Source of the DNA: Myxococcales bacterium
GTDB taxonomy: Bacteria > Myxococcota > B64-G9
Direction: 5' to 3'
Assembly (NCBI GenBank): GCA_012798435.1
Contig: JAAZNF010000102.1
Span: forward strand, 1 to 39,911
DNA length: 39,911 bases
This document shows positions 10,849 to 34,829 of this stretch, piece by piece. How positions within the stretch are numbered: the stretch's first letter is position 1; each line of letters starts with the position of its first letter. The notes under the pieces were generated by a model. It was not told where the DNA came from. It worked only from the letters and a program-made list of their open reading frames with translations, and did not search any database. Position numbers and translations under genes: made by a program.

Positions 10849-12915
10849 ATGAGCACGCGGGCGACCCTGTGCATCCTTGGCGTCATGATGGGAACCATGG
10901 CCATGGCGGCTTCCCCCACCCCTCACCCGTTCGGCTGGGAGGACATGTTCGCCATGGTGCGCCTCTCCGACCCCCGGCCCTCTCCCGACGGACGCTGGGT
11001 GCTGTTCACGCGGGTGCAGTACGACATCGAGGCCAACCGGGGCAACACCGACCTGGGCATGGTATCCATCGACGGGAAGCTCTCGAGGCGCCTCACCCGC
11101 GACCCGGCGGTGGACACCAATGGTCGCTGGCTGCCGGATGGCTCGGCCGTGGTGTTCCTCTCCAACCGCTCGGGCAGCTTTCAGATCTGGCGCGCCAGCC
11201 TCGATGGGGGCGACCCCGAGCGGCTCACCGATTTCCCGCTGGACGTCGACGGCTTCGAGCTGTCGCCCGACGGCAAGCGCGCTGTCTTCTGGAGCGCGGT
11301 GTTCCCCGATTGCGCCGACCTGGCGTGCAGCCAAAAGAGACTGGCGGATCGCGCGGCGTCCAAGGCCACCGGCCGGATCTACGACCGGCTGTTCGTGCGC
11401 CACTGGGACTCCTGGGCCGACGGGCGGCGCAACCACCTGTTCGTCACGTCTCTTCCGGTTACGAACGGAAAGACGCCGGTCGATCTGATGGCCGGCTGGG
11501 ATCAGGACGCGCCGACCCGACCGTTCGGCGGCCCAGAGGAGATCGCCTGGGCGCCGGACGGCCAGAGCATCGTGTTTGCTTCCCGTCCCCCGCTCAACGA
11601 GGCCTGGAGCACCAACGTCGAGCTCTACCGCGTGGCCGCCGATGGCAAGTCCCGCCCGGCGTTGCTCACCGGCGATAACCCGGCCACCGACACCCGGCCC
11701 GTCTTTTCTCCCGATGGCAAGACGCTGGCCTACCTGGCCATGCAGCGCCCCGGGTTCGAAGCCGACCGCCTGCACATCGTCTTGATGGACGTGGCCAGCG
11801 GCAAGAAGAACCCGCTCACCCACGAGTGGGATCGCTCCGTGGAGGATCTGGTTTGGGCCGCCGACGGCTCGCTGCTGTACGTCACCGCGCAGGAGCACGC
11901 CCGGCAGAAGATCTTCTCAGTCGAGGCCGGCTCGGGTCAGGTGAAACCGCTGTGCGAGGTCGGGAGGAACTTCTCGCTGACGCTCACCCGCGGCGGGACG
12001 CTTGTCTTTCTGCGGGATCGCATGACCCACCCGGCGGAGGTCTTCGAGTTGGACCCGGCGACGGGCCGGGTCTCCCAGCTGTCGCGCGAAAACGAGGAGC
12101 GGTTGCGCACCGTCCGCATGAGCGAGCCCGAGGACCTCTGGTTCGAAAGCGATGGGTCGAGGGTGCACGCCTGGATCCTGCGCCCCGTCGAGGCGCGCAA
12201 GGGACAGAAGGTTCCGCTGGCCTTCCTCATCCACGGCGGCCCCCAGGGCAGCTGGCTCGACGACTTCCACTACCGCTGGAATCCACAGTTCTACGCCGGC
12301 GCTGGCTACGCGGTGATCGCGGTGGATTTCCGCGGCTCCACCGGCTACGGCCAGGCCTTTGTGGACGCCATTCGCGGCAACTGGGGCCCCGGCCCCTACG
12401 CGGACCTCATGGCCGGCCTCAAGGCCGGCTTGCAGAAACTCCCCGAGGTGGACACCGCCCGTATGTGCGCCCTGGGCGCGTCCTTCGGTGGCTATATGGT
12501 CAACTGGATCGCCGGGCAGGACCATCCCTTCGCCTGCCTGGTGACCCACGACGGGGACTTCGACGTCGAGAGCAGCTACTACAACACCGAGGAGCTGTGG
12601 TTCCCCGAGTGGGAGATGACCGGGCCACCGTGGGAAAAGCCGGAGGTCTACGCGCGCAACTCGCCCAAGGCCAACGTGAGCCGCTGGAAGACCCCGATGC
12701 TGGTCGTCCAGGGAGGGTTGGACTTCCGGGTGGTGGAGACCGAGGGCCTGTCCACCTTCAACGCGCTCCAGCGCCGGGGCGTACCCAGCCGTCTGCTGTA
12801 CTTTCCCGACGAGAACCACTGGGTGCTCAAACCCCAGAACTCGCGCTTGTGGCACCAGACGGTGCTGGAGTGGCTGGATCGCTGGACCCGGACCACTCGC
12901 AAGAGCGCGCGCTGA
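10849..12915 (+). CDS. Secreted S9 family prolyl oligopeptidase / acylaminoacyl-peptidase
   Basis: 688 residues with a Sec signal peptide (~1-20, ending AMA). Residues ~25-400 form a seven-bladed TolB/WD40-like propeller with repeated SPDG/APDG turns. Residues ~430-688 are the alpha/beta-hydrolase domain: IHGGPQG oxyanion loop, nucleophile Ser545 in GASFGGYM, Asp625 in GGLDFRV and His657 in ENHWV. It is of the dipeptidyl-peptidase 5/acylaminoacyl type, cleaving short peptides in the periplasm or outside. The triad is intact, so it should be active. It begins 39 bp after the nucleotidase-domain gene and closes the operon, suggesting that imported or surface-captured peptides are digested. Confidence 0.93.
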   Translation: MSTRATLCILGVMMGTMAMAASPTPHPFGWEDMFAMVRLSDPRPSPDGRWVLFTRVQYDIEANRGNTDLGMVSIDGKLSRRLTRDPAVDTNGRWLPDGSAVVFLSNRSGSFQIWRASLDGGDPERLTDFPLDVDGFELSPDGKRAVFWSAVFPDCADLACSQKRLADRAASKATGRIYDRLFVRHWDSWADGRRNHLFVTSLPVTNGKTPVDLMAGWDQDAPTRPFGGPEEIAWAPDGQSIVFASRPPLNEAWSTNVELYRVAADGKSRPALLTGDNPATDTRPVFSPDGKTLAYLAMQRPGFEADRLHIVLMDVASGKKNPLTHEWDRSVEDLVWAADGSLLYVTAQEHARQKIFSVEAGSGQVKPLCEVGRNFSLTLTRGGTLVFLRDRMTHPAEVFELDPATGRVSQLSRENEERLRTVRMSEPEDLWFESDGSRVHAWILRPVEARKGQKVPLAFLIHGGPQGSWLDDFHYRWNPQFYAGAGYAVIAVDFRGSTGYGQAFVDAIRGNWGPGPYADLMAGLKAGLQKLPEVDTARMCALGASFGGYMVNWIAGQDHPFACLVTHDGDFDVESSYYNTEELWFPEWEMTGPPWEKPEVYARNSPKANVSRWKTPMLVVQGGLDFRVVETEGLSTFNALQRRGVPSRLLYFPDENHWVLKPQNSRLWHQTVLEWLDRWTRTTRKSAR

Positions 12916-13077: not shown

Positions 13078-13242
13078 TCATTCATCGCGCACACACGGAG
13101 TCTCATGGCTCACCTCCCGGTGATCGCATTCTTCTTTCTCGGGCCGGACATGGGGGATTTGCACCGGGTAGCGACAGATGGAGCAGGCCCGTCCGGCTTG
13201 CTGCAACGTATGGCAGTTGGGGCAAAGTGTGATGAAAATCAT
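13078..13242 (-). CDS. Small zinc-ribbon protein
   Basis: 54 residues, with Cys pairs C7-x2-C10 and C20-x2-C23 separated by nine residues, a compact zinc-ribbon (LCPNCH...ACSICR). The tail is charged and has two more Cys. No family is recognised. It is supported by an ideal GGAGGTG ribosome binding site 4 bases before the ATG at 13242. An upstream in-frame ATG (13263) lacks one. It lies 199 bp downstream of the cNMP-binding gene on the same strand and may be the end of that cluster or a separate unit. Such proteins often bind nucleic acid or a partner protein. Confidence 0.6.
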   Translation of the reverse strand: MIFITLCPNCHTLQQAGRACSICRYPVQIPHVRPEKEECDHREVSHETPCVRDE

Positions 13243-13441
13243 GACGCACCTCCGCTCGGGCATCCGCGCCGATCAAAAAGCAATCGACATGCCAAACAGA
13301 TCATCGGCACCCGCCGGAAAAACAGCAGCCCCAGGTGTTCGGATTTGCGAAGGTTTGCCAGGCGCGCCTTACGCAGACGTGACGTCGCTCACCTTCCATT
13401 GTGGAACATGGGGTTCTCAGGCTGACAGGCGTGTCCGGTTC

Positions 13442-13885
13442 TCATGCGGGTGTGGTTTTCTGGCCCGAAAGGCGGCGATCCGCCTCGCGCAAGCGCTGGG
13501 TCAAAGTGCGAATGATCCCGTGGGCGATCTCGATCTTCTCGGACATGAGCTCGAAGAAGTCGTCTCGCTCGACCTTGAGGCAGTTTACATCGCTCACCGC
13601 GGTCACCGAGGCGGAGCGAGGCTCATTGTCGAGCAGGGACATTTCTCCGAAACTCTCCTTCTCTCCCAGTCGGCTGATCTCCTGGCCGAGCCGATGGACC
13701 ATCACCTGGCCGTCCAGGATCAGAAACAACGCGTCCCCGATCTCCCCCTCCTGGATGATCAACTGGCCTTGCTCGAACGAGACCTCCTGAGTGATCCCCG
13801 CGATCTGGGCCAGGTCCTCTCCCGGAATGCGGGAGAACAGGTCCACCGACTTGAGGAACAGGACTTTTTCCACGGTCGAGAGCAT
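13442..13885 (-). CDS. Stand-alone cyclic-nucleotide-binding domain protein
   Basis: 147 residues, almost entirely one CNMP/CRP-type beta-roll. The phosphate-binding cassette is complete: FGEMSLLDNEPRSASV with Glu81 (ribose contact) and Arg90 (cyclic phosphate contact). A helix follows, but there is no DNA-binding helix-turn-helix, so it is not a CRP-type regulator. The beginning, MLSTVEKVLFLKSVDLFSRIP, resembles the CNMP modules that I recall attached to the C-terminus of other HEAT-containing Npt-type transporters. Here it is a separate gene 15 bp after the ROK gene, in line with two such transporters. It probably senses cAMP, cGMP or a similar ligand and docks onto a partner. Confidence 0.88.
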   Translation of the reverse strand: MLSTVEKVLFLKSVDLFSRIPGEDLAQIAGITQEVSFEQGQLIIQEGEIGDALFLILDGQVMVHRLGQEISRLGEKESFGEMSLLDNEPRSASVTAVSDVNCLKVERDDFFELMSEKIEIAHGIIRTLTQRLREADRRLSGQKTTPA

Positions 13886-13900
13886 GACGCCGCCTCGGAA

Positions 13901-14890
13901 CTAGCCCGTTTCTGCCTGGGCGTCCAGGAAGAAGTCGTAGCGTTTCTCGGCGCGCAGAGCCGCCACCACCGCACCCAGCAAGCAAGCCCTCTCGGGATCC
14001 GGGGCGCACACGATGGCGACCTCGGCGTTGCGGGGCATGGCCTTGTCCCGGGCGGTCTTGAGCAGCGACTTCTTGAACAGGTTCCACGAGCGCAGGATTC
14101 CCCCGGACAACACCACCATGGCCGGGTTGAGGATGTCCAGCAGGATGGCCACGCCGAGCCCCAGCAGCACGCCCTGCTCCTCCCAGATGGAGATGCACGT
14201 CTCGTGGCTGGCCTGGGCGAGCTCGGCGACCTCTTCGGGGCGGGCGGGGAGTTCGTGCCCGGCCGCTCGATACTCGGCCAGCAACGAAGCGAGCGCGTAG
14301 CCCCCGGCGTGCGCCTCGAAACACCCGGTGCGACCGCAAACGCAGGTGCGCCCGGGATGAAACAGGCGCATGTGTCCGGCCTCCAGCGCGGAGTTCTTGG
14401 CGCCTCGAAGCAAGCGGCCATCCTCGATGAAACCGCAGTCGATTCCACTGCCCACCACCATCGACAAGAGCGGGCTGCGATCACGACTGGGCCCGAAGAA
14501 GTAGGCCGCCAGCGCCGCGGCGTTCCCTTCTCCCTCCACGGTCACCGTCCGTTGGAAGGACTGCGACAGCGGCGTCCGGAGATCGATCCCCGTCCAGCCT
14601 TGCAGCGGCGAGGCCACGATCACTCCGCTGTCCGGGTCCACGTGGCCGACGGTGGCGCATCCAACGGTGACCAGGTCGGCGAGCTTCACACCGCCGCGGT
14701 GCAACACCTCGCGGCAGGTCCGCACCAGCGTCTCGGCCAACGGGTTCTGCTGCCCCACCGGCGGAACTGCCTCCTCCAGGAACTGGACCACCTGCCCGCG
14801 GCGGTCCACCAACCCCGCCCGGACGTTGGTCCGGCCGACGTCGATGCCCATAGCAAAGGGGCCCACCGGGTTCTGCGACGAGATCGACAT
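13901..14890 (-). CDS. ROK family protein with altered catalytic loop
   Basis: 329 residues of the ROK (repressor, ORF, kinase) sugar-kinase fold. Seen: the first phosphate loop MGIDVGRTNVRAG (14-26); EAGHM (170-174) with His173; and the zinc motif CVCGRTGCFE (183-192, Cys183, Cys185, Cys190). The catalytic loop, usually ENDANAAA, is VEGEGNAAA (118-126), so the base Asp position holds Glu121 and the preceding Asn is Gly. The second phosphate loop is VGSGIDCG rather than GTGVGGG. No helix-turn-helix precedes the domain. It could be a weak or inactive kinase serving as a sugar sensor. Its ATG lies just past the DUF1571 stop (TGAAGAAATG), so the two are coupled. Confidence 0.87.
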   Translation of the reverse strand: MSISSQNPVGPFAMGIDVGRTNVRAGLVDRRGQVVQFLEEAVPPVGQQNPLAETLVRTCREVLHRGGVKLADLVTVGCATVGHVDPDSGVIVASPLQGWTGIDLRTPLSQSFQRTVTVEGEGNAAALAAYFFGPSRDRSPLLSMVVGSGIDCGFIEDGRLLRGAKNSALEAGHMRLFHPGRTCVCGRTGCFEAHAGGYALASLLAEYRAAGHELPARPEEVAELAQASHETCISIWEEQGVLLGLGVAILLDILNPAMVVLSGGILRSWNLFKKSLLKTARDKAMPRNAEVAIVCAPDPERACLLGAVVAALRAEKRYDFFLDAQAETG

Positions 14891-14894
14891 TTCT

Positions 14895-15788
14895 TCAGAA
14901 CTTGTACGCCGGGTTGGCGGGGTCGAAGTCTCGACTGGTGAGCCCGGGGTTGAGCTTGAGATCCTGGTACTCGAACGTCTCGTACACCTGCCCTTTCCAG
15001 TCCCAGATGGTCACGCGCAGCGGAAGATTCGTCTCGCGATCGACCAGGAACTCGGCCCGCGCGCCATAGTAGCGGGGGACCCACACGCTGTCCCCCTCGT
15101 CGGGGTCATCGGGTTCGTCATACTCCGGGTTGGCGTAGAGGATCAGGTACATGTCCTGGCCGGTGCGCGTGGCGATCTTCCACAGATCCTCGTCGGCCCC
15201 GACCTTGATGGTGGCGCCGGCCTTGGGAAAGCTGGCCTGGATCCGCAAGGTCTGGCGGCCGCCCACCGCGGGGCCCTCGGAGACATCGAAGGTGCCCTCT
15301 TTGCGCTGCATGGCCAAGCGCAGGTTCTTCGCGGCGACCTTGATGGTGTTCTCCAGGCCGAAGTCGAAAATACTGTGGTGGTTGCCACCCATGGCCATGG
15401 AGCCGCGGGGGTCGAGGTTCACATTGATGTCCGGGAAGGATCCCTTGTGCACCTTGAGCTGGTTGTCGTTGCTCCCCCGCACGAAGATGATCTCCCGACC
15501 GGCGAAGGGTTCGAGGTACTTGACGTACACCTTGAAAGGACGTGCGAACTTGATCTGCATCCGCTCGCGTGGGCCCGTCTCTTTCTTGAAACGCTCCTGC
15601 TTGAGCATGAGCGCGGTATAGTCGTTTACCTTGGCGATGGAAGCCTCGGCTCGCTGAATGATCTCTTCCACGCTCGGGAGCGGGTCACCGGAAGGTGCCG
15701 GGGATGGGGGTGCGGGTTCTGGCTCGGCTGCCAGAACGCTCGCCGAGCCGGTCAGGACGAGCAGGACGATCGCGGCGCGAAGAACCAT
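14895..15788 (-). CDS. DUF1571 periplasmic protein (LolA-like fold)
   Basis: 297 residues with a cleavable signal peptide (~1-20, ending VLA). After a Pro-rich stretch, the DUF1571 domain begins: VNDYTALMLKQERF (~55-68), FKVYVKYLEPFAGREIIFV, HHSIFDFGLENT, and a C-terminus TSRDFDPANPAYKF that is typical of the family. The family is distantly related to lipoprotein carriers of the LolA/LolB type, suggesting binding of a lipid or acyl ligand in the periplasm. ATG 15788 has AAGGAGG upstream. It lies 113 bp after the smaller MFS-HEAT gene and is coupled to the ROK gene downstream. Confidence 0.85.
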   Translation of the reverse strand: MVLRAAIVLLVLTGSASVLAAEPEPAPPSPAPSGDPLPSVEEIIQRAEASIAKVNDYTALMLKQERFKKETGPRERMQIKFARPFKVYVKYLEPFAGREIIFVRGSNDNQLKVHKGSFPDINVNLDPRGSMAMGGNHHSIFDFGLENTIKVAAKNLRLAMQRKEGTFDVSEGPAVGGRQTLRIQASFPKAGATIKVGADEDLWKIATRTGQDMYLILYANPEYDEPDDPDEGDSVWVPRYYGARAEFLVDRETNLPLRVTIWDWKGQVYETFEYQDLKLNPGLTSRDFDPANPAYKF

Positions 15789-15901
15789 GGTGGCCTCCTT
15801 CTCCTTCCGTGGCCGGACGATACCACACAACCGGGTCCGGGGGTCAATCTCGCCGGCTTGGACGGAGCCGTCGGGATCGGGATTCTTCCGGGACACCGCC
15901 G

Positions 15902-18667
15902 TCATGCGGGCGACCCCGGGGGTTCTCTGGCGACATCGCTGCGATTCATGCAGACCTGCGCCTCCTCTCGCACCAGGGTCTCGGGATGGCCGAGCAGGCC
16001 GCGGATCAGTGTTGAAAACCCGGGCAAAGAACTCCGCCGAATCGCGTCCAGAGCACATACCACCGTCCAGGCATGGCCAGAACCCAGCAGCTCGCGCAGC
16101 CAGCCAGGACCATCACGGTGCATCAACACGAACAACCCGTCGCCAATTTTCAGAAGTTTCTGGGATTGAGTTTCGAGCAGCGGGACCACGCAGCGGCGAT
16201 TCTCCTCGTCTAGCAGGTTTTCCAGCACCTCGAGCGCGTTGGCCCGGATGGTCCGGTGGGGGCTGGCCAGGTTTCTCAGCGCGGATTCCATGGCCGGTTC
16301 CGGGAACAGCGAGCGCAGCAACAACCACACCCGGTCCAGGGCTTGCTGGCGGAGGTTCTCCAGACAATCCTTCAGCAGCTCGGCCTGAAGAGGTTCGGTC
16401 TCGCACAGGATAGCCTGGAACTGGTACACCTGCTTCAGCTCGGTGTGGAGCAAACGGCGAAGGCTCTCCCGGTCCGCCCGCAGGGAAGGAAATCGCGCGC
16501 GCAACGAGACGATCCCCTGGAGCGCGGCATAGCGCAAGCTCGCGTCTTGATCCTCCAGCGCACGAGTGAGGAGGTCCAGGCTGCCCTGCTCGCCGATGCG
16601 GGAGAGCACCCGCGGCACCTGCCGGCGAATGTTGGGGTCTTCGCGAGGGTTGGCCAGCACGATCCGCAGGGTGGAATACGCCCGCGTCCCGAACTCGGCG
16701 ATCGCCTGCACCGCCGCGCGCCGGGTGTGCCGATCCGCCAGGCGCTGAAGCAGCGGCAGGAGCAGTTCGGAGCTGCCGAGCCTGCCTGCGGCCTCCACCG
16801 CATGAACGCGAACCGTATGATCGGGATCGTCCAGCAACGGCAACAGGTTTCGATACAAGCTGCGGATTCCGCTCTGGCCGACCACCCGCGTTCCGCAGCC
16901 GCGGGCCTCGGCCTGCGGGGCCTGGAGCAAGACCTTGAGGGGTTCGGCCGCGGCCAGGATCCCGTCCAGGCCACCGAAGCGTAAAAAGCCCGAGATCGCC
17001 GCGCTGCGCACCTCGAACGACTCATCGTCAAGGAATCGTTCCACCCTCGGCAACGCCCGCTCCTGGAGCATCGAGCAGTAGGTGCCCACCGCCTCGGACC
17101 GCACCCCGGGATCCGCATCCTCCATCCGTGCCCGGATGCGTTCCAGGAAGGGCGTGGCGTTCTCATGCGCCATCAGGCGCAAAGCTTCCTGTCGGATGCG
17201 CGGCGACTCGTGCTCCAGCAGGCGATCCAGATCTTGCGACCAATCCTGGCGGCGGATGAACGGCAGGATCTCCAGGGCGTGGAGCACATGGTGCTCGTCG
17301 GGCGCGGCCAGGGTCTCGCGCACCAGGCCCAGGGCTTGCTCGTCCTTGGCCAGGGAGATCGCCGTGCCGGTGGAGACGCGGCGGCGCTCATCGAGGGTGT
17401 CGCTGAGCGCGCGTACATACTCCCGGCGCAGGGTCCAGGTTGCGCCGAGCCAGGGGAGCAGGCACACCACGCTGCCAAAACCCAGCCACTCCACGTGAGG
17501 ATCGAGGCGCGGCGCCAGGATGGCGATGGCCAACCCGGCCATTCCCTGCGCCAGGTGCTTCAGAACGCCGTCCACGAAGGCGCGCGCGCGCCCGCTCCAG
17601 CGGCCCGACAGCGGCAGGTACAACACCTGGCTGGCGGCGTCGTGCACGGTATACCGCAAGACCGAGTCGGTGCCCCGGAGCAAGGTCACGCTCCACAACG
17701 CCGGCACCACCAGGAAGACGGCAGTGCCCATCAGCAGCAGGGTCGGCATCACGGCGAGGGTGCGGGCCACGCCCCAGCGGGTGATGAGCCGGCCGGTGAG
17801 CAGCACCTGGACCAGGATGCTCACCAGGCCACACACGCCGTGAAACGTGCCCAGGAACGCGGCCAGCTCGTTTTCCCGGTTCAGGTGGGCGTAGCGGGCG
17901 ACGACCTTGAACTGGAAGTCCACCACCGTCACCACCACGAAGGTGAGCACGGTGATCCAGGCCACCCACCGCATGTGTCGCACCGAGAACACCTGCGTCC
18001 AGTCCGAGAGCAACGAACGCCGCCGGCCGGCCGGTGCGTCTTTGGGGGCGGGTGCCTCGACCGGAACGATCCTCCGCAGCGTCACTTGCAGCACGAGACA
18101 GGCGAGAAGCAGCGCCGCGCACACCAGCAGCAAGTTGTCGGCGCCGACGACGCGGCCCACTCCACCGATGGTGAGTCCCACCACCACCGAGGCCACCACC
18201 CCACCCGCTCCGACAATCCCGAACAACCTCTTCGCCTGGCGCGTATCGAATACGTCGTGCGCGAAAGTCCAGAATTGGATGGTGAGCAGGCCCCCCATGA
18301 TCTCCACGAACACGTACAGGACCGGGTAGACCCACGGCAGACGCCAGGCCACCAGACCGCGCAGCACGAGCACCAGGGCGATGTGACCCGCGGTCAGCGC
18401 AAGGCCCAGGCTGTGGTGCCGAAAGCGATCCGCCACTCGGGAGTAGGCCGCCCCGGCCAGCACCATGGCCAGCGCCACCCAGGCGTACATGTAGGGCAGG
18501 GCGCCGATGTCGTACCGGGACAGGAACAAGGCGTCCCGGGCCACCCGTGCGGTGATGAAACTGCCCACCACCAGCGCCAGGTAAAGGAACAGGCTCATGG
18601 TCCGGCCGGCTTCGCCCTGCCGCCATTGCCCTAGGCCACCGAGACGTCCGTGTGGGGTTTCAGCCAT
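15902..18667 (-). CDS. MFS-type nucleotide-transporter-like protein with C-terminal HEAT repeats (paralogue 1)
   Basis: 921 residues. Residues ~24-425 hold about 11-12 membrane helices of the Npt/Tlc (ATP/ADP translocase-like) MFS type: ARVARDALFLSR near the first helix, AKRLFGIVGAGGVV, and LRYTVHDAASQVLYLP. Residues ~430-915 are a chain of HEAT-like helical repeats, predicted to be cytoplasmic. Classic bacterial Tlc proteins exchange nucleotides in intracellular parasites; members with HEAT solenoids in free-living bacteria have unknown substrates. I keep the ATG at 18667 because GAGG precedes it and because the paralogue aligns from there. It starts 6 bp after the paralogue's stop, so the two are co-translated. 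Confidence 0.88.
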   Translation of the reverse strand: MAETPHGRLGGLGQWRQGEAGRTMSLFLYLALVVGSFITARVARDALFLSRYDIGALPYMYAWVALAMVLAGAAYSRVADRFRHHSLGLALTAGHIALVLVLRGLVAWRLPWVYPVLYVFVEIMGGLLTIQFWTFAHDVFDTRQAKRLFGIVGAGGVVASVVVGLTIGGVGRVVGADNLLLVCAALLLACLVLQVTLRRIVPVEAPAPKDAPAGRRRSLLSDWTQVFSVRHMRWVAWITVLTFVVVTVVDFQFKVVARYAHLNRENELAAFLGTFHGVCGLVSILVQVLLTGRLITRWGVARTLAVMPTLLLMGTAVFLVVPALWSVTLLRGTDSVLRYTVHDAASQVLYLPLSGRWSGRARAFVDGVLKHLAQGMAGLAIAILAPRLDPHVEWLGFGSVVCLLPWLGATWTLRREYVRALSDTLDERRRVSTGTAISLAKDEQALGLVRETLAAPDEHHVLHALEILPFIRRQDWSQDLDRLLEHESPRIRQEALRLMAHENATPFLERIRARMEDADPGVRSEAVGTYCSMLQERALPRVERFLDDESFEVRSAAISGFLRFGGLDGILAAAEPLKVLLQAPQAEARGCGTRVVGQSGIRSLYRNLLPLLDDPDHTVRVHAVEAAGRLGSSELLLPLLQRLADRHTRRAAVQAIAEFGTRAYSTLRIVLANPREDPNIRRQVPRVLSRIGEQGSLDLLTRALEDQDASLRYAALQGIVSLRARFPSLRADRESLRRLLHTELKQVYQFQAILCETEPLQAELLKDCLENLRQQALDRVWLLLRSLFPEPAMESALRNLASPHRTIRANALEVLENLLDEENRRCVVPLLETQSQKLLKIGDGLFVLMHRDGPGWLRELLGSGHAWTVVCALDAIRRSSLPGFSTLIRGLLGHPETLVREEAQVCMNRSDVAREPPGSPA

Positions 18668-18673
18668 GAAACC

Positions 18674-21526
18674 TCAGGACGTGGGAGCACCGGCCAACAT
18701 GGACTCGGCGAAGGAACGCACCCGGCTGGAGGGATCCTTGACGTGCCGCTGAAGGACCACCTGGCGCCGCTCCGGCGGAAGCAACCTCGCCAGCGAGAGT
18801 AGGGCCGTCTCCCTCACTAGCGGATCATCGGACACGGTGCACATCTCGATGGCCGTGACAGTCTGTGGATCGTCAGCGACGCGGGAGGCGTACTCGAGGG
18901 CGCAGCAGGTCACCCAGGCATCGGAACTCTGCATCAACTCCTCCAGCACCTGCCGACGACGGGTGGCATCGACGGTGGGCTCCTCCGCGGGGTGCTGGCC
19001 GTTCCCTCCGGAGGGTGGCTCCAGCACCGGCAGCAGGCGGCGCCGAATGGACTTGTCCAGGAGATTGTCCAGGATCTCCAGCGCGTTGGCCCGGATCTGC
19101 CGCTGGGGAGCGTTCAAGTTTCGCAGCACCGCGTCCAGCGACCTCGGGGGTAAAAAGCCCGACAGCAGCCGGAAAATGCGTCGCAGGGCACGCTCGCGGC
19201 GTAGGACCAGGCATTCCCGCAGCAACCGCTCGGTCGCGGGGAGGTTGAGCTCGGCGAGCAACCGATCCGCCTCCCGCATCTCGGCGAGCTCACGATCGAG
19301 CCCGTCCTTCAACCGGGACGGATCCAATACCAGCCGTGGATCGCGGAGCCGAATGGCATGGATCGCCTCCAGCACCCGAGATCGCAGCAAGGGGTTCGGC
19401 TCCTCGATGTTCTGCGCCAGCACGTCGAGCGCGGCCCGGCCGCCAATGCGCGCCAGGATCGGCGGCACCGCGGCCCGCAGCGAAACGGACTCCGCCGGTT
19501 GGGCCAGCACCCGCTGCAGCAAGCGCACCGCGGGCTCACCGTAGGCGACCAAGGCGTCCGAGACCGCGCCGTGCATCTGCGGCTCTTCCAGCCGGTACAC
19601 CAGCGTGGGCAGAAGCTCCGGGCTACGCATGCGCCCCGCGGCGCGCACCGCGGCGAGCCTCACTGTCTCCTCCGGGTCCGAGAGGAGCTGGAGCAAGGGG
19701 TGATAGAAATTCCTGACGCCGACCTCGCCCAAAATTCGAGCGCCGGCGGCCCGGGCCGCCGGGTCGGGGCTCTCCAGGAGAGCCTTCAGCTTCTCCGCAG
19801 CGCTGAGCACGCCGTCCAACCCCGCGAATCGAACCAACCCGCTCACCGCCGCGGCCTGGATGTGGAGATCGGGATGTCTGAGATACTGCGCCGCCACGCG
19901 CACCGCTCGCTCGCGGCCGACGGCGCAGAACGCGGTCACCGCGGCGGCCTGCACCTGGCGGCTCTCGTCCTTGAGAAAACGCGCGATGCGCACGCCGTCG
20001 CGCAGCTGCCCTCGCTCGCCCAGGATCTCGACCGTGCGGGCGCGGACCTCGGGCGAGGGATGCTCGGCCAGCCGCAACAGGTCCGCGGTCCAGTCGATGG
20101 CCGGCAGGCCGCGGATCATCTCCAGCGCGTGCAGCACGATGTCGCGTGAGGGGTGCGTCAAGGCCTGGCGCAACACGCGGGAGGCCGCGTCGTCGGGAAC
20201 GATGGTCCCGGCCTCCTCCAGCGAAAATCGCCGGCTCATCACGGTTTGCATCAGGGCGGAAAGGTAGCGATGGCGCACTCCCACCGCAGCCAGGATCCAA
20301 CCGCCGAGCAATGCCAGAGTGATCCAGGTGAGCGCCGCGAGCGGGAGGCGGGGAACGATCCACACCAGCAGAGCACCGGAGACGCCGATGGCGAGCGGCC
20401 GGACCATCCCGTCCAGCAAAGCCTTGGCCCGTCCCCGCAGGCCCGCGGACACTGGCAGGTACAAGAACTGCATGGTGGCGTCGTTCACCGTGTAGCGTAG
20501 CACCGCGTCGCTGCCCTTGAGCAGACTGGCGCTCCACAGGGCCGGTTGCACAAGAAATGAAATGGCGCCCAGCGTCAGGGATCCCGGCAGTAGCAGCAGC
20601 GGCAACAACACTCCGAAACGCTCCAGGAGCCGCCCGGTGATCAGGAGCTGGATGACGCAGCTCAGAATCCCGGTGACCCCCCAGAACATCCCGAAGAAGG
20701 CGCCCATGTTCTTTTCTTGCCCCGCGAAGGCTTGCTGGGCGCTGGCCTTGAACTGGAAGTCGCAGAAGGTGGTGACCAGGGTGATGAGCAGGATGAGGAC
20801 GGACACCAGCTGCAGGTGGCGGTTGCCGAACACGCGCCGCCCGTCCGCGATCAACGATAGCCGGTGCAACGGGTGCAGGCGCCGTTCGACCAGGTGCGTG
20901 TTGAGCTCGGCGCCGTAGTGACGTCCCAGGCGATGGAGCAACAGCAGCGCCGTCACCAGCAGCAACGCGCACAGCAGCAGAAGCTCCGGGGTGCCGAGCC
21001 GCGATACGGCCGCGCGCGAGCCGAATCCGACCAGCACCGAGGACACCACGCCGCCGGCGCCGACCACGCCGAACAGGCGCTTGGCCTCGCGGGTGGTGAA
21101 GATGTCGTTCGCCAGCGTCCACGACTGCAGGATGAGCAGGTTCCCGGCCAGCTCCACCAGCACGTACAGGACGGGCAGGAACCAGTCCAGACCGGCCCCC
21201 ACCAGGACGCGGGACACCAGCATCAACGAGGCCGCGCTGGCCAGGCTGGCCTGCAGGATGCGGTCCCGGCGAAAGCGGTCGGTGATGCGTGAATACAGGC
21301 CGGCCTGAACGAACACCCCCAGCGCCACCCACAGGTACATGCTCGGCAACCAGGAGGACGGGAAACGGGACAGGAACAGGGTGTCCCGGGCCACCCGGCC
21401 GATGATGAACATGCCCACCACGCACATCATCAGGCCGAACATCAACGCGACCCGCCGGCCTTCTCCCGGCTGGACGCGCAGGACCCGGCCGGCGACCACG
21501 CTCAACTTGCGCGTCAACGCGCCCAC
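18674..21526 (-). CDS. MFS-type nucleotide-transporter-like protein with C-terminal HEAT repeats (paralogue 2)
   Basis: 950 residues, the same architecture as the next gene. Membrane domain ~20-435 (IIGRVARDTLFLSRF, TREAKRLFGVVGAGGVV, LRYTVNDATMQFLYLP), then HEAT repeats ~465-945 with a low-complexity Gly/Pro linker near ~865-885. I choose the GTG at 21526, which follows GGGAGGTGGC; an ATG 35 codons upstream would add a run without homology to the paralogue. The two proteins share motifs throughout, indicating an old tandem duplication; they may form a heterodimer. It is the first gene of the cluster. The region upstream carries the second 71-bp repeat, and I see no strong promoter. Confidence 0.87.
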   Translation of the reverse strand: MGALTRKLSVVAGRVLRVQPGEGRRVALMFGLMMCVVGMFIIGRVARDTLFLSRFPSSWLPSMYLWVALGVFVQAGLYSRITDRFRRDRILQASLASAASLMLVSRVLVGAGLDWFLPVLYVLVELAGNLLILQSWTLANDIFTTREAKRLFGVVGAGGVVSSVLVGFGSRAAVSRLGTPELLLLCALLLVTALLLLHRLGRHYGAELNTHLVERRLHPLHRLSLIADGRRVFGNRHLQLVSVLILLITLVTTFCDFQFKASAQQAFAGQEKNMGAFFGMFWGVTGILSCVIQLLITGRLLERFGVLLPLLLLPGSLTLGAISFLVQPALWSASLLKGSDAVLRYTVNDATMQFLYLPVSAGLRGRAKALLDGMVRPLAIGVSGALLVWIVPRLPLAALTWITLALLGGWILAAVGVRHRYLSALMQTVMSRRFSLEEAGTIVPDDAASRVLRQALTHPSRDIVLHALEMIRGLPAIDWTADLLRLAEHPSPEVRARTVEILGERGQLRDGVRIARFLKDESRQVQAAAVTAFCAVGRERAVRVAAQYLRHPDLHIQAAAVSGLVRFAGLDGVLSAAEKLKALLESPDPAARAAGARILGEVGVRNFYHPLLQLLSDPEETVRLAAVRAAGRMRSPELLPTLVYRLEEPQMHGAVSDALVAYGEPAVRLLQRVLAQPAESVSLRAAVPPILARIGGRAALDVLAQNIEEPNPLLRSRVLEAIHAIRLRDPRLVLDPSRLKDGLDRELAEMREADRLLAELNLPATERLLRECLVLRRERALRRIFRLLSGFLPPRSLDAVLRNLNAPQRQIRANALEILDNLLDKSIRRRLLPVLEPPSGGNGQHPAEEPTVDATRRRQVLEELMQSSDAWVTCCALEYASRVADDPQTVTAIEMCTVSDDPLVRETALLSLARLLPPERRQVVLQRHVKDPSSRVRSFAESMLAGAPTS

Positions 21527-25147: not shown

Positions 25148-25710
25148 TTACTTGTCGTCGCCCTCGGCGGGCTTCTTGGCGGCAGGCTTCTTGGCGGCGG
25201 GCTTCTTGGCGGCCGTCTTGGCGGCCGTTTTGGCGCCGGGCTTGGCTCCCTTGGCCGGAGCCTTGGCCCCCGGCTTCTTGGCGGCGGGCTTCTTGCCACC
25301 CTCGGGCTTCGGTGTCTCCGCCGGGATCAGCTCCAGGAAGGCCATCGGAGCGTTGTCGCCGTGCCGGAAGCCAGTGCGCACGATGCGGGTGTAGCCGCCC
25401 GGCCGGTCCTTGAAGCGCGGCGCGATGGTGCCGAAGAGCTTCTCCAGCGCCTTGTCGCTCTGCACCAGGCGCTTGGGATTGCCGACCCACTCGCCCTGGG
25501 TGTTGAGGCGCTGGGCGGCCAGACGCCGCGCGGCCAGCGTGCCGCGCTTGCCGAGGGTGATGATCTTCTCCGCCACCCGGCGCAGCTCCTTGGCCCGGGC
25601 CAGCGTGGTGAGCACCCGTTCGTGCACGAGCAGGGAGGTCACCAGGTTGGCGAACATGGACAGGCGGTGCTCGGTGTCCCGGCCGAAGCGCCGGCTCTTG
25701 CTCTGGTGTC

Positions 25711-25714
<4 letters not shown>
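25148..25714 (-). CDS. rplQ: 50S ribosomal protein bL17 with Lys/Ala/Pro-rich tail
   Basis: 188 residues; E. coli bL17 has 127. The first ~125 residues are a normal bL17 ([59 protein letters not shown]). The remaining ~60 are a low-complexity tail of KKPAAKK-type repeats ending EGDDK, similar to histone H1-like tails. bL17 sits on the solvent side near the exit tunnel of the 50S. The gene overlaps the rpoA stop by four bases (ATGA) and is the last of the alpha operon. Confidence 0.97.
25168..25300 (-). repeat. Imperfect 15-bp tandem repeats in rplQ
   Basis: Units close to GGCTTCTTGGCGGCG recur consecutively at 25168-25215 and again at 25272-25298, with diverged copies between. On the coding strand they encode KKPAA units of the bL17 tail. 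Such repeats can change copy number by slippage. Confidence 0.75.
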
Positions 25715-26739
<1,025 letters not shown>

Positions 26740-26749
26740 GAGGCCTCCG

Positions 26750-27376
26750 CTACTTGGAGTACAGCTCCACGATCATCTGTTCCTGAATGGGCATGGTGAT
26801 GTCTTCGCGCGCCGGGAGCGCCTTCAGCGTGGCCTTGAACTCCTTGCGATCCAACTCGATCCAGGCAGGTACACCGCGCCGCTCGATGGCGTTCAGCGAC
26901 TCCTCGATCAACTTGAGCTGGCGGCTCCCCTTGCGCAGCGACACCACGTCGCCGGCGTTGAGCAGCATGGCGGGCACCGTGGCCCGGTGGTCGTTGACCC
27001 GGAAGTGGCCGTGGCTCACCAGCTGGCGCGCCTCGCCACGGGTACGCGCGAAACCCATGCGGTACACCATGTTGTCCAGGCGGCGTTCCAGGGAGAGCAG
27101 CAGGCTCTCGCCGGTAATCCCCTTGCGCCGGGCGGCGTCGGCGAAGAACCGCCGGAACTGCCGCTCCAGCACCCCGTAGATGCGCTTGACCTTCTGCTTT
27201 TCGCGCAGCTGCGTACCGAAGGGCGAGAACTTGGTGCGCGCCTGGCCGTGCTGGCCGGGGGGGTACGGCCGACGGTCGACGGAGCACTTGTCGGAGAAAC
27301 ATCGGTCGCCTTTCAAGAACAGCTTCAGTTTCTCACGGCGACACAGCTTGCACAGGGAACCGGTGTAACGAGCCAC
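26750..27376 (-). CDS. rpsD: 30S ribosomal protein uS4
   Basis: 208 residues. Primary 16S binder and assembly initiator of the 30S body. The N-terminus has a zinc-type Cys set (CKLCRREK...CFSDKC). The S4 RNA-binding domain follows: [31 protein letters not shown]. In many bacteria it represses the alpha operon by feedback. It starts 30 bp after rpsK. Confidence 0.99.
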
Positions 27377-27406
27377 TGCATCCTCCTTGGACTGGCGGTC
27401 GCGATC

Positions 27407-27781
27407 TCAGACCCGCCGCCGCTTGGGCGGCCGGCAACCGTTGTGGGGAACCGGGGTCACGTCCATGATCTGGGTGACCTTGAGCCCCGAGGCCTGGAGC
27501 GCCCGAATGGCCGCCTCCCGGCCGGCGCCGGGGCCGTTGACCTCGATGCCGATCTGCTTGAGCCCGTGCTCCATCGCCTTCTTGGCCGCCTCCTGGGCCG
27601 CTAGCTGGGCCGCGAAGGGCGTGCTCTTGCGCGATCCCTTGAAACCGCAAGCGCCCGCGCTCGACCAGGCCAGCGTGTTGCCGGCCACGTCGGTGATGGT
27701 CACGATGGTGTTGTTGAAGGTGGACTGGATGTGGGCCATCCCGCTCTGGACGTTCTTCTTGACTTTCTTCGCCTTGGCCAT
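27407..27781 (-). CDS. rpsK: 30S ribosomal protein uS11
   Basis: 124 residues, a normal length. Hallmarks: [29 protein letters not shown] and the C-terminal [18 protein letters not shown]. Located on the 30S platform near the 3' end of 16S and the mRNA exit. 27 bp after rpsM in the alpha operon. Confidence 0.99.
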
Positions 27782-27808
27782 ACCTCACCGTGTCCTTTCC
27801 GCGATTCG

Positions 27809-28213
27809 TCAGCTCGGCTGGACCGGCGCCGAGGTCGAGGACCCAGGTTTCTTGCCCAGCAATTTACCCTTGCGCGGGCCCTTGCGGGTGCGCGCGTTGG
27901 TGTGTGTACGCTGGCCACGCACGGGAAGGCCCTTGCGGTGCCGCTGGCCGCGATAGGTGTTGAGGTCCATCAGCCGCTTGATGTTCATCGACACCTCTCG
28001 CCGCAGGTCGCCTTCGACCTTGTAGTGCGCGTCGATGAACTCACGCAGGGACTTCACGTCGTCCTCGCTGAGGGCATCGGTGCGCTTGTTGACATCGATG
28101 CCGACGCCCGTGCAAATCTCGCGCGCCCGGGTGGGCCCCAGGCCGTAGATGTACGTCAGCGCCACCACGATCCGCTTGTTGCGGGGAAGGTCGACTCCAG
28201 CAATACGTGCCAC
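27809..28213 (-). CDS. rpsM: 30S ribosomal protein uS13
   Basis: 134 residues. Starts [15 protein letters not shown] and shows the family segment [13 protein letters not shown] and [25 protein letters not shown]. It lies in the 30S head and bridges to uL5 of the 50S. The C-terminal tail ([13 protein letters not shown]) is slightly longer than usual. 27 bp after rpmJ. Confidence 0.99.
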
Positions 28214-28240
28214 CGCATCACCTCCTGTGCTGCCGGGCCG

Positions 28241-28357
28241 CTAGGTGCCCTGGCGCTGCTTGTGCCGCGCGTTGGTGCACTGCACCCGGACCACGCCGCG
28301 CCGCCGGATAATCCGGCACTTGTTACAGATCCTTTTCACCGAAGCGCGAACCTTCAT
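28241..28357 (-). CDS. rpmJ: 50S ribosomal protein bL36
   Basis: 38 residues, too short for many gene finders. The translation begins [20 protein letters not shown] and carries the zinc set C11-x2-C14-x12-C27-x4-H32 of the zinc-containing bL36 form. Its ATG overlaps the map stop by four bases (ATGA), so it is translated by coupling. In many bacteria infA sits between map and rpmJ; here there is no room for it. Confidence 0.97.
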
Positions 28358-29139
28358 GGCTCTTCTCCTTCTTCCAGCCGGCTGAGCACCATCGGGCCGT
28401 CCGCGGCGATCGCCACCGAATGCTCGAAGTGGGCCGACAGGCTACCGTCCTGGGTCAGCTGGGTCCAACCATCCGCCGCGGTCCGCACCTGGTAGCCACC
28501 CTCGTTCACCATGGGCTCGATGGCCAGCACCATGCCCGGCCGCAGCCGCTCGTTGTGACCGGCAGCCCGGTAGTGCGGCACCTGCGGCTCCTCGTGCAAG
28601 GCGCGCCCGATGCCGTGTCCCACGAAATCCCGTACCACCGAGAAGCCGCTCTTCTCCACGTGATCCTGGATGGTCGCGCCGATGTCCGAGATGCGGTTGC
28701 CCGGCCGCAGCTTCTCGATGGCCAGCTCCAGCGCCTCGCGGGTGACCTGCATCAGGCGCTCTGCCACCGGGCTGACCTTCCCGATGGGGAGCGTCACCGC
28801 CGCGTCGCCGTAGTAGCCGTCCACCACCGCGCCGAAGTCCACGCTCAGGATGTCGCCCTCGCGCAGGCGGCGTTTGGCCGAGGGGATGCCGTGCACCACC
28901 TCGTCGTTGAGGGAGGTGCACAGGCAGCCCGGGAACGGGTAGGGCCCCGCGCCCTGGTAGCCCTTGAAGGCCGGGGTAGCGCCGTAGCGCCGGGTCAAGT
29001 CCTCGGCCAGCTCGTCGAGCTCGAGGGTGGAGACGCCCGGCCGGGCCGAGCGGGCCACCTCGCGCAGCACCTTGGCCACGATGCGGTCGGCCTTGCGCAT
29101 GCGCTCGATCTCGGACTCGGATTTGAGCACCACAGCCAT
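28354..29139 (-). CDS. map: Methionine aminopeptidase, type I
   Basis: 261 residues. Removes the initiator Met from new proteins, a two-metal enzyme acting near the ribosome exit. All ligands are visible: His in [10 protein letters not shown], Asp pair in [17 protein letters not shown], His in [14 protein letters not shown], Glu in AIEPMVNEG and Glu in FEHSVAI. Starts 3 bp after adk and overlaps rpmJ by four bases. Confidence 0.98.
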
Positions 29140-29142
29140 GCC

Positions 29143-29796
29143 TCAGACGTCCTTGATCCCCAGCGCCTCGCGGATGGCGCGCCCGATCTCCACGGGGGTG
29201 CCGCTTCCGCTGATCGGCTTCAGCAACCCCTGGTTCCGGTAGTAGGGTTTGAGCGGCTCGGTCTGCTCGGCGTACACCGAAAGCCGCTTGCGGATGGTCT
29301 CCTCGCGATCATCGTCGCGGGTGATGAGACGCGAGCCGCAGTTGTCGCACAAGCCGCTCTTTCGGGGCGGCTTGGAGTCCTTGTGAAACATGGCCCCGCA
29401 GGCCGGGCAGCTCAGGCGGCCGGTGAGCCGGCGCAGCAGCTCCCCCTCGGGTACCTCGATGCTCAACACCGCGTCCAGCCGACGGCCGGTCTCGGCCAGC
29501 ATGCGGTCGAGCGCCTGGGCCTGCGCCACCGCGCGCGGGAAGCCGTCCAGCACGAAGCCGCCCTGGCAATCGGGGCGGGCCAGGCGTTCCCGGATCATAC
29601 CGATCACCACCTCGTCCGGCACCAGCCGGCCCTGGTCCATGAAGCTCTTCGCCTGGCGACCGAGCTCGGTCCCCTCGCGCACCGCCGCCCGCAACAGATC
29701 TCCGGTGGACACCTGCGGGATGCGCAGGCGCTCCACCAGCATCTGGGCCTGGGTGCCCTTCCCCGCCCCGGGAGGACCGAGCATGATGAGCTTCAT
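29143..29796 (-). CDS. adk: Adenylate kinase
   Basis: 217 residues. Interconverts 2 ADP with ATP and AMP. P-loop GPPGAGKGTQA at residues 7-17, LDGFPRAVAQAQALD in the core, and a long-form LID holding a four-cysteine zinc site (CPACGAMFH...CDNCGSRL), typical of Gram-positive and deltaproteobacterial enzymes rather than of E. coli. Starts 10 bp after secY. Confidence 0.99.
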   Translation of the reverse strand: MKLIMLGPPGAGKGTQAQMLVERLRIPQVSTGDLLRAAVREGTELGRQAKSFMDQGRLVPDEVVIGMIRERLARPDCQGGFVLDGFPRAVAQAQALDRMLAETGRRLDAVLSIEVPEGELLRRLTGRLSCPACGAMFHKDSKPPRKSGLCDNCGSRLITRDDDREETIRKRLSVYAEQTEPLKPYYRNQGLLKPISGSGTPVEIGRAIREALGIKDV

Positions 29797-29806
29797 GAGC
29801 GGCTCC

Positions 29807-31128
<1,322 letters not shown>

Positions 31129-31129
<1 letters not shown>

Positions 31130-31611
31130 CAGCCCTCCTGCGCCGGAGCCTTCACCGGGTGCCGGATGGGAGCGATCACCTCGGCCTTGCCGCCGGCCGC
31201 CTCGATCTTGCTCCGGGCCGAGGCGGAAAAGCCCTGGGCCCGGACGGTGAGCGCCTTGCCCAGCTCGCCGTCGCCCAGCACCTTGACCGGGTCGGTGAGC
31301 CTCTGGATGAGCCCGGCCGACTTCAGGGCCGCGGCGTCCACCACCGCGCCCGCGTCGAAGGCCGAGAGGTCACCCAGGTTGACCACCGCGAACTCGCGCC
31401 GGTTGAAGTTGAGGAAGCCGCGCTTGGGCATGCGGCGCTGCAGCGGCATCTGGCCGCCCTCGAAACCGCGCCCGATGCGATGACCCGAGCGGCAGCGCTG
31501 CCCTTTGTTGCCCCGACCCGCGGTGCCACCGCGGCCGCTGCCGCAGCCGCGCCCGACCCGGCGCCGCGCCTTGACGGCTCCCCGGGGAGCCTTGAGCCCG
31601 TTCAGTTTCAT
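31129..31611 (-). CDS. rplO: 50S ribosomal protein uL15
   Basis: 160 residues. The N-terminal glycine-rich rRNA-threading segment [19 protein letters not shown] and [17 protein letters not shown] are diagnostic. Late-binding 50S protein in the central core. Ends on the secY start codon; 25 bp after rpmD. Confidence 0.98.
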
Positions 31612-31636
31612 ATCCGCCTCCGCGCGCTAGCCTGGG

Positions 31637-31819
31637 CTAGCACTCCTCCACGTCGATCATGAACGCGAGCTTCTGCACCATGCCCCGCACCGCGGGGGTG
31701 TCCTCGCGGACGACCGAGCGGCCGCGGCGCTTGAGCCCCAGGCCGTCCAGGATCGCCCGCTGGCGATCGCTGCGCCCGATGCGGCTCTTGCGCAGGGTGA
31801 TCTTGATCTTCTTGGCCAT
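31637..31819 (-). CDS. rpmD: 50S ribosomal protein uL30
   Basis: 60 residues, normal length: [26 protein letters not shown] and a C-terminal [16 protein letters not shown]. Small two-layer alpha/beta protein of the 50S. Starts 3 bp after rpsE. Confidence 0.97.
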
Positions 31820-31822
31820 GGC

Positions 31823-32338
31823 CTACTTACCCTCCTGGATCCGCAACTCCTCCGGCTTCTTGCCCCGACGCACCGCTGCCACCTCGATCGCCTCCAGCTG
31901 CTCCAGCGCCTTGAGGGTGGCGCGCACCACGTTGTGCGGGTTGCCGGTCCCCAGGCTCTTGCTGAGCACGTCCCGCACCCCGGCCGCCTCCAGCACTGCC
32001 CGCACCGGGCCGCCGGCGATGACGCCGGTACCCTTGCCGGCGGGCTTCAGCAGGACCTGGCCGGCGCCGAAGTGCCCCAGCACCTCGTGCGGGATGGTGC
32101 CATCGATCAGCGGGACCCGGAACATGTGCTTGCGCGCGTTCTCGGTCCCTTTGCGGATGGCCTCGGGCACCTCGTTGGCCTTGCCCTTGCCCACGCCCAC
32201 CGAGCCGTTACCGTCTCCCAGCACCACGATGGCGGCGAAGGAGAACCGCCGGCCGCCCTTGACCACCTTGGCCACGCGGTTGATGTGCACCACTCGCTCG
32301 ATGAGCTGCTCTTCGCCGGCGCCGAACTGCTTGTTCAC
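31823..32338 (-). CDS. rpsE: 30S ribosomal protein uS5
   Basis: 171 residues. N-terminal double-stranded-RNA-binding-like fold ([18 protein letters not shown]) and C-terminal half with [18 protein letters not shown] and [18 protein letters not shown]. It takes part in decoding fidelity and mRNA unwinding at the entry channel. 12 bp after rplR. Confidence 0.99.
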
Positions 32339-32350
32339 GTCACCCTCCTG

Positions 32351-32716
32351 TCAGAACTTCAGGCCCTTGGCCCGGGCGGCGTCCGCCAGCTTGGCGACGC
32401 GACCATGATATGGATATCCGTTCCGGTCGAACACCACCTGTTGGATCTGTCGCGCCAGGCAACGCTCGGCAACCACCTCTCCCACGCGAACCGCGGCGTC
32501 CACCTTCTTGAGGTCTTCGGCGCTCTGGCGCAGATCCTTCTCCAGGGTGCTGGCAGAAACCAGCGTCCGCCCGGACTGGTCGTCGATCACCTGCACGTAG
32601 GTGTGCCGGGCGCTCTTGAAGATGGTCATGCGGGGCCGCTCGGGGGTACCCACCACTCGCTTGCGGATGGCCCGCTTCCTTCGATTCCGTCTTTCACTGC
32701 TGCGATCCGTAATCAT
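32351..32716 (-). CDS. rplR: 50S ribosomal protein uL18
   Basis: 121 residues: [37 protein letters not shown] and the C-terminal [24 protein letters not shown]. It binds 5S rRNA. The ATG at 32716 is 16 bp after the rplF stop and gives the normal length; upstream in-frame starts would run into rplF. Confidence 0.98.
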
Positions 32717-32732
32717 GTCGTCACCTTCTTGC

Positions 32733-33281
32733 TCACGCGGTCGTGCCAACGGCCTTCTTGCCCGCCTTGCGCTTGATGACCTCACCCTCGTAAGTGATCC
32801 CTTTGGCCTTGTAGGGATCGGGCCGGCGCAGCGCCCGGATGCTTGCGGCAACTCTCCCCACCAGATCCCGGTCGGGACCGGTGAGGATGACCTTGGTGTT
32901 CTTCTCCACGGCGACCTTGAGACCGGCGGGGATGGAGAACGTCACCGGGTGCGAGAACCCCAGGTACAGGACCAGATCCTGGCCCTTGGTCTCGGCGCGG
33001 TACCCCACGCCGTTGATGTCCAGCGCGCGCCGGAAACCCTCGTGGACCCCGCGCACCATGTTGTTGATGAGCGCTCGGGCCATGCCCTGGTTGGCGCGGG
33101 AGGCACGCTGGTTGTCTGGACGGCTCACCAGCAGGCGCTGCCCCTCTTGGGTCACGCTGATGCCGGGTGCCAGGTTGAGTTCCAGCTTGCCCTGCGGGCC
33201 CTGGACCTGGATATGCCCGGCGTCGATGCTGACCTTCACTCCGGGCGGGATCGGAATCGGTTTCTTGCCGATGCGGGACAC
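32733..33281 (-). CDS. rplF: 50S ribosomal protein uL6
   Basis: 182 residues with two homologous alpha/beta halves. Start MSRIGKKPIPIPPGVKV; C-terminal signature RRPDPYKAKGITYEGEVIKRKAGKK. It lies at the base of the L7/L12 stalk near the sarcin-ricin loop. 13 bp after rpsH. Confidence 0.99.
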   Translation of the reverse strand: MSRIGKKPIPIPPGVKVSIDAGHIQVQGPQGKLELNLAPGISVTQEGQRLLVSRPDNQRASRANQGMARALINNMVRGVHEGFRRALDINGVGYRAETKGQDLVLYLGFSHPVTFSIPAGLKVAVEKNTKVILTGPDRDLVGRVAASIRALRRPDPYKAKGITYEGEVIKRKAGKKAVGTTA

Positions 33282-33294
33282 GACGTCACCTCGC

Positions 33295-33696: not shown

Positions 33697-33723
33697 GCAC
33701 GCTCCCTCTTCGTTCAGCCCGTG

Positions 33724-33909: not shown

Positions 33910-33921
33910 GTTACCCGCTCC

Positions 33922-34476: not shown

Positions 34477-34488
34477 GACCGCTCCGCC

Positions 34489-34809: not shown

Positions 34810-34829
34810 GAACTTCCCTGCCTTTCCCG

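Follow-up and report, generated by a model that had tools for sequence, protein, structure and literature searches.

NTT-HEAT transporters, in which an NTT domain is followed by C-terminal HEAT repeats, were described by Major, Embley & Williams in 2017 as lying next to, or being fused with, a cyclic-nucleotide-binding domain (CNBD), and control by cAMP was proposed (PMC5381601). The NTT fold is shared with the plastid and chlamydial ATP/ADP translocators (AtNTT1 and chlamydial NTT1; PDB 9j3l-9j3o). In mycobacteria, the major facilitator superfamily (MFS) transporter Rv1410 hands triacylglyceride to LprG, which is encoded in the same operon (PMC10576003). In this study, we analyzed a 39,911-nucleotide stretch of a Myxococcales bacterium (contig JAAZNF010000102.1 of assembly GCA_012798435.1; hereafter, the window), which carries a cluster encoding two tandem NTT-HEAT transporters (T1 and T2), a DUF1571 protein, a ROK-family protein, a stand-alone CNBD protein (cNMP), and a small zinc-ribbon protein. 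The evidence for an operon-like cluster and for the link between cNMP and the transporters is strong. The transporters probably move something other than ATP and ADP, perhaps a lipid.

Compared with the NTT-HEAT systems described in 2017, the window has two tandem transporter copies, places DUF1571 and ROK between the transporter and the CNBD, and adds a zinc ribbon and a neighboring S9 peptidase. A first-pass annotation of this DNA had suggested that no described system contains this set of genes. Its central idea was already known in outline, because the link between NTT-HEAT proteins and CNBDs, with possible cAMP control, had been published (PMC5381601); the DUF1571-ROK insertion, the transporter duplication, and the lysine loss reported below are undescribed. 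We found neither a class operon combining DUF1571, ROK, and a duplicated transporter, nor the lysine loss, nor a LolA-like fold for DUF1571 in the searchable literature. Thus, the NTT-HEAT/CNBD module is known, and the duplication of the transporter at the base of the class, the class-only position of DUF1571 and ROK, the likely LolA-like fold of DUF1571, and the loss of the lysines in NTT-HEAT proteins are new.

The six-gene cluster and its conservation

The cluster occupies the reverse strand, and its genes are listed in transcription order.

T1, 21526-18674, - strand: 950 amino acids (aa), NTT-type transporter with 12 transmembrane helices and a C-terminal HEAT solenoid (Pfam HEAT_2 4e-33, TLC 4.7e-14)
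T2, 18667-15902, - strand: 921 aa, second NTT-HEAT transporter, tandem paralogue of T1 (Pfam TLC 3.8e-15, HEAT_2 2.4e-28)
DUF1571 protein, 15788-14895, - strand: 297 aa, with an N-terminal signal peptide (Pfam DUF1571 2.2e-44)
ROK-family protein, 14890-13901, - strand: 329 aa (Pfam ROK 5.8e-44)
cNMP, 13885-13442, - strand: 147 aa, stand-alone CNBD protein (Pfam cNMP_binding 5.4e-22)
Zinc ribbon, 13242-13078, - strand: 54 aa, small four-cysteine protein, 199 bp after cNMP

The intergenic gaps are 6, 113, 4, 15, and 199 bp, which confirms in detail the earlier description of six same-strand genes with short spacing. The Pfam domain calls are secure for every gene but the zinc ribbon. An Rfam scan detected no RNA element inside the cluster. 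The promoter and terminator scans were uninformative, with 0 promoters and 4 terminator-like matches against 5.6 expected.

This genome's class, an uncultured lineage resembling myxobacteria, consists of nine genomes in one family. The order T1-T2-DUF1571-ROK-cNMP was found in the T1 regions of four relatives (L064, L059, L063, and L062); L061 has the same order minus T2, and L060 keeps it up to the contig end inside ROK. The six order-informative class genomes therefore agree in gene order (6/6). The gaps in these relatives, from T1 to cNMP, are −4 to 27, 93 to 136, −1 to 43, and −1 to 63 bp, and L062 has stop/start overlaps at the junctions. Protein identity to the relatives is 43–61%, with higher values for cNMP (72–81%, or 69–79% in a second comparison within the class), and the short gaps and the gene order are kept across six genera at ~50% identity. 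The cluster is not a chance arrangement, since both the order and similar gaps recur. The first-pass annotation had named random separation of these genes in relatives as the observation that would speak against its grouping; when the neighborhood comparison was run, the relatives were found to keep the genes together.

The seventh genome, G003, is an exception. Its DUF1571 and cNMP genes lie together beside an S9 peptidase (L085), T1 is on a different contig, and neither a T2 nor a ROK match was found in the genome; G004 likewise shows no T2. Because of this exception, we regard T1, DUF1571, and cNMP as the persistent core of the system and T2 and ROK as dispensable.

The NTT-HEAT transporters and their cyclic-nucleotide-binding partner

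The Pfam TLC scores of T1 and T2 (52.5 and 56.1 bits) lie well above the curated cut-off of 21 and place both in the NTT family, and the C-terminal HEAT repeats (HEAT_2 4e-33 and 2e-28) identify them as NTT-HEAT proteins. The first-pass label of MFS transporters thus holds at the level of the MFS fold, but the family is corrected to the NTT/Tlc type, that of the ATP/ADP translocators. In a tree of 45 NTT-HEAT proteins, T1 and T2 each form a clade (both 100/100) and group together (99/100). As sister clades, they are by phylogeny the products of a single tandem duplication that dates to the base of the class.

Transport by AtNTT1 depends on the charged residues K155, E245, E385, and K527 (PMC3306366, PMC10654386); ADP binding is lost in the K155E and K155R variants, and ATP binding in K527E (PMC3306366). 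We mapped these four residues onto the 45 NTT-HEAT proteins by PDB chain alignment, hidden Markov model alignment, and two MAFFT modes, all of which agree, and verified the AtNTT1 numbering by finding the right letter at all four positions. The T1 equivalents are Y64 (K155), E125 (E245), D256 (E385), and I380 (K527). The position of K155 is Tyr in 44 of the 45 proteins, and that of K527 holds Ile, Gln, or some other residue but never Lys, so both nucleotide-binding lysines are missing throughout (45/45). The acidic positions are retained, as E or D at E245 and as D at E385 (45/45 each). This pattern suggests that the NTT fold and its acidic machinery were kept while the nucleotide contacts were lost, and ATP/ADP exchange is likely not to be expected because both lysines are gone. 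T1 and T2 descend from ATP/ADP exchangers and probably move something else now.

The published proposal is that NTT-HEAT proteins move ATP/ADP or another nucleotide and that the CNBD, by way of cAMP, matches uptake to the energy state (PMC5381601); DUF1571 and ROK would then have side functions. Besides having been put forward already, it is consistent with NTT membership by the TLC score and with the two acidic positions. The fold points in the same direction. A model of L070, a natural T1-type NTT-HEAT-CNBD fusion of 1085 aa that stands in for T1 and T2, covers 1083 aa with a predicted local distance difference test score (pLDDT) of 88.7 and a predicted template-modeling score (pTM) of 0.83, and comprises 12 N-terminal membrane helices, the HEAT solenoid, a short low-confidence linker (933–944), and a folded CNBD. 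Structural comparison matched the N-terminal part of this close relative best to AtNTT1 (9j3m_A, TMt 0.73). However, the substitutions at K155 and K527 fall exactly where changes in AtNTT1 abolish ADP or ATP binding, and T1 and T2 (44.5 and 54.9 bits) remain far from the cut-off of 387.2 bits for the NTP/NDP exchanger model TIGR00769 of NCBIfam. HEAT and CNBD partners are further additions relative to the plastid and chlamydial translocators. We therefore regard nucleotide transport as an improbable function for T1 and T2.

The phosphate-binding cassette of cNMP (FGEMSLLDNEPRSASV) has its Glu and Arg intact, and on this basis we propose that the protein binds cAMP or cGMP; the same genome encodes eight class III nucleotide cyclases. 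Within its own genome, the best paralogue of cNMP is the CNBD of a second, distant NTT-HEAT-CNBD fusion protein (C119 = L054:8320-11478, 1053 aa), with 42% identity (4e-31; next best 2e-19). The cassette of this fusion (GGVSLLDQKPHAAS), like those of L055 and L056, no longer has the Glu and Arg by which a cyclic nucleotide is held, and its CNBD is a degenerate sensor domain that perhaps binds no ligand. Outside the class, across ~20 other families of the phylum, a genome usually has one T1-type NTT-HEAT gene. Among the ~26 evaluable T1-type loci there, a cNMP gene directly follows NTT-HEAT in 11 and is fused to it in one (L070). As the window's own genome holds only ~17 CNBDs in total, such adjacency is far from chance. 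The first-pass view of cNMP as an unfused counterpart of a domain carried by related transporters is thus strengthened by its best paralogue, by the fused and adjacent versions across the phylum, and by the intact cassette. Sea urchin SLC9C1 also combines a transporter with a CNBD, but it appears in the Foldseek list through that domain only; it has an unrelated exchanger fold, no HEAT repeats, and the domain in the same chain. Overall, the cluster is very probably a real operon, and its cNMP protein a true partner of the NTT-HEAT transporters; its genes are probably transcribed as one unit.

Whereas the CNBD of some NTT-HEAT members directly follows the transporter or is fused to it, DUF1571 and ROK stand between the two in the window. 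This position is seen only in the window's class, and no DUF1571 or ROK gene was found beside NTT-HEAT in the loci of the ~20 other families. The cluster could hold two units that are merely co-transcribed, one of NTT-HEAT and cNMP and another of DUF1571 and ROK inserted between them. Such a composition would agree with the NTT-HEAT-cNMP loci outside the class that lack both inserted genes, with G003, where DUF1571 and cNMP are kept away from T1 and ROK is missing, and with the DUF1571 paralogues that occur in other gene contexts. Against it are the tight spacing held at ~50% identity in six genomes and the identity of the gene kept beside DUF1571 in G003, which is cNMP and not a random one. 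We consider a loose association of this kind unlikely.

DUF1571 and ROK proteins

The DUF1571 protein has a signal peptide (...SASVLAAEPE) without a lipobox Cys. An AlphaFold2 model built from 17 homologues reached a pLDDT of 88.5 and a pTM of 0.81. In a Foldseek search of the PDB, nearly all top matches were RseB, MucB, LolA, LolB, LprG, and LppX (probability 1.00, E-values 1e-8 to 1e-4). LprG itself has a LolA-like fold, in agreement with these matches. A Pfam search gave no recognized LolA match, and a search of a viral fold library gave nothing useful. The model suggests that DUF1571, although a separate sequence family, likely belongs, as a soluble periplasmic protein, to the LolA-like superfamily, whose members are carriers or sensors of lipids or lipoproteins. 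The first-pass proposal of a periplasmic ligand handler is thereby sharpened to a predicted LolA/LprG-like fold.

The presence of sensors in this superfamily raises the possibility that DUF1571 is an RseB/MucB-like envelope-stress sensor, and that the operon is a stress response under signaling control, with the transporter removing or flipping the molecule that is sensed. The best fold matches include RseB and MucB, which have the highest query-normalized TM-scores (0.41–0.43), and the Pfam MucB_RseB model matches weakly, below its threshold (20.7 vs 22.3 bits). But the carriers LolA, LprG, and LppX match DUF1571 about equally, and the operon has no anti-sigma or sigma gene; a role in stress sensing seems to us a low-probability explanation. 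In L087 (2598-6191) and L088 (17-3701), from two genera, a DUF1571 paralogue is divergent from acetoacetate-decarboxylase, acyl-CoA-dehydrogenase-like, and TetR-like genes; among these neighbors, the Pfam check covers the decarboxylase alone.

The closest PDB relative of the ROK protein is the N-acetylmannosamine (ManNAc) kinase of human GNE (1e-35). Its Zn motif CxCGxxGC and ExGH are intact (CVCGRTGCFE and EAGH). The phosphate loop DxGGT has become DVGRT (DVGVT in most relatives), and NDGN has become GEGN (GDG in most relatives); the catalytic Asp is Glu in the window and in L064 and is retained in five relatives, and nearly all class members have lost the first Asn of NDxN. The kinase signature of DxGGT plus NDxN with the catalytic Asp is thus absent, and the class-wide alignment bears out the first-pass designation of an altered ROK protein. 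A NagC-type repressor was considered and rejected; the protein has no helix-turn-helix, and the ROK domain begins at residue 13–14. When 84,980 named species genomes were scanned with a pattern for this orthologue, six were returned, all deltaproteobacterial or myxococcal metagenome-assembled genomes (MAGs), plus one weak unrelated match. Judging from these motifs, ROK may be a sugar-binding protein whose kinase activity is low or altered, and its role would be accessory because it is absent from G003.

These observations bear on the model of the first-pass annotation, in which T1 and T2 form a heterodimer gated by docking of cNMP, DUF1571 binds a periplasmic ligand, and ROK senses a sugar, which would be either substrate or signal. 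In favor of this model, the tandem pair is retained in the window and five relatives, and ROK, nearest to ManNAc kinase, has the Zn motif and a largely preserved sugar site. On the other hand, T1 and T2 are sister paralogues, T2 is missing beside T1 in L061 and from G003, and in genomes outside the class one NTT-HEAT protein suffices alongside cNMP. The lack of ROK in G003 and its loss of the first Asn of NDxN and one Gly of DxGGT also argue against this model, to which we assign a small probability.

Proposed pathway and neighboring genes

We propose, as a tentative reading that falls somewhat short of an even chance, that the operon serves cyclic-nucleotide-controlled envelope transport of a non-nucleotide, probably lipid-like substrate that is handed to DUF1571. 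T1 and T2 would be inner-membrane transporters of the NTT fold with their HEAT solenoids in the cytoplasm. Binding of cAMP or cGMP to cNMP, and docking of cNMP on a HEAT solenoid, for which the covalent fusion of a CNBD at HEAT in relatives is a guide, would switch transport. The transporter would then carry an amphipathic or lipid-like substrate to the periplasmic side; the lipid nature and the direction are our inference. DUF1571, as a soluble LolA/LprG-like carrier, would take the substrate up and deliver it across the periplasm, and ROK would be an accessory sugar- or phosphosugar-binding protein with lowered or altered kinase activity.

By analogy, the nearest working counterpart of this mechanism is Rv1410-LprG. 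In both, an operon encodes an inner-membrane transporter of the MFS fold and a putative or established carrier of the LolA fold, but this is an analogy of layout between non-homologous transporters. The window differs in having an NTT-family transporter with HEAT repeats and a soluble carrier, and in the extra cNMP and ROK proteins.

Two further proteins flank NTT-HEAT or cNMP genes in the window or its relatives.

S9-family peptidase, secreted, with a PD40 propeller, 10849-12915, + strand: convergent syntenic neighbor outside the operon (Peptidase_S9 1e-57)
Peptidase_MA-PD40-Omp85 outer-membrane protein (~960 aa), in relatives: L059:3164-6073, L058:3816-6692, L061:173-3088, L097:14787-17681, L074:713-3571, L050:1587-4469

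The S9 peptidase adjoins cNMP in L061–L064 and L085 (60–79% identity), and just beyond it in L062 (5058-6560) lies a Ser/Thr protein kinase fused to a cNMP-binding domain. The zinc ribbon gave no match in a Pfam search, and so small an open reading frame is unsupported in the window alone; it is considered real because L061, L062, and L063 have it in the same position (pattern LCPNC-x3-Q-x-AG-x2-C-x2-C). It was not seen in L064 or L085. The Omp85 protein lies upstream of NTT-HEAT in five relatives (G001, G003, G004, G005, and G008) and also in L074 and L050, from two other families; it is either the immediate neighbor or separated by one to a few genes, and this position fits an envelope-spanning role. 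Orthologues of a HAMP-PAS sensor histidine kinase lie upstream of T1 in four relatives (L059:2-1744, L063:4072-6048, L058:6829-8760, and L065:2882-4900). Elsewhere in the window, positions 1-346 hold the 5′ end of a 16S rRNA gene that is truncated where the contig ends (Rfam, 268.6 bits), and gene-caller translations indicate an operon of ribosomal protein genes at 25148-39755, which also includes secY-, adk-, map-, and rpoA-like genes; the cluster lies ~3.6 kb past its rplQ-like gene.

Several observations weigh against the proposed pathway. The loss of the two lysines speaks, as far as residues can tell, against canonical ATP/ADP chemistry more than for a lipid. The TM-scores of DUF1571 are moderate (0.3–0.66), RseB and MucB of the same fold group are sensors, and DUF1571 lacks the lipid anchor of LprG. 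Outside the class, a neighboring cNMP gene is missing from about half of the NTT-HEAT loci that could be evaluated. In G003 the DUF1571-cNMP pair does not adjoin T1, which makes the link less than absolute. The window's genome encodes the Omp85 protein away from the operon (C72:45925-48801). Furthermore, the genomes of the class named in this analysis are MAGs.

NTT-HEAT-CNBD proteins are widespread, and the sole published idea of their function is the movement of ATP. The locus offers two pointers to the contrary, the lost lysines and a dedicated, predicted LolA-like partner, and names a testable alternative, the control by cyclic nucleotides of lipid or amphiphile movement across the bacterial envelope. 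It is conceivable, though doubtful, that NTT-HEAT proteins as a whole, in bacteria, oomycetes, and one case in Chlamydia trachomatis, are cyclic-nucleotide-regulated exporters of lipids or amphiphiles and not nucleotide carriers. DUF1571 gains a likely fold class, and, if this broader reading is true, its operon with a LolA-like carrier would reveal a role of NTT-HEAT transporters in envelope lipid trafficking.

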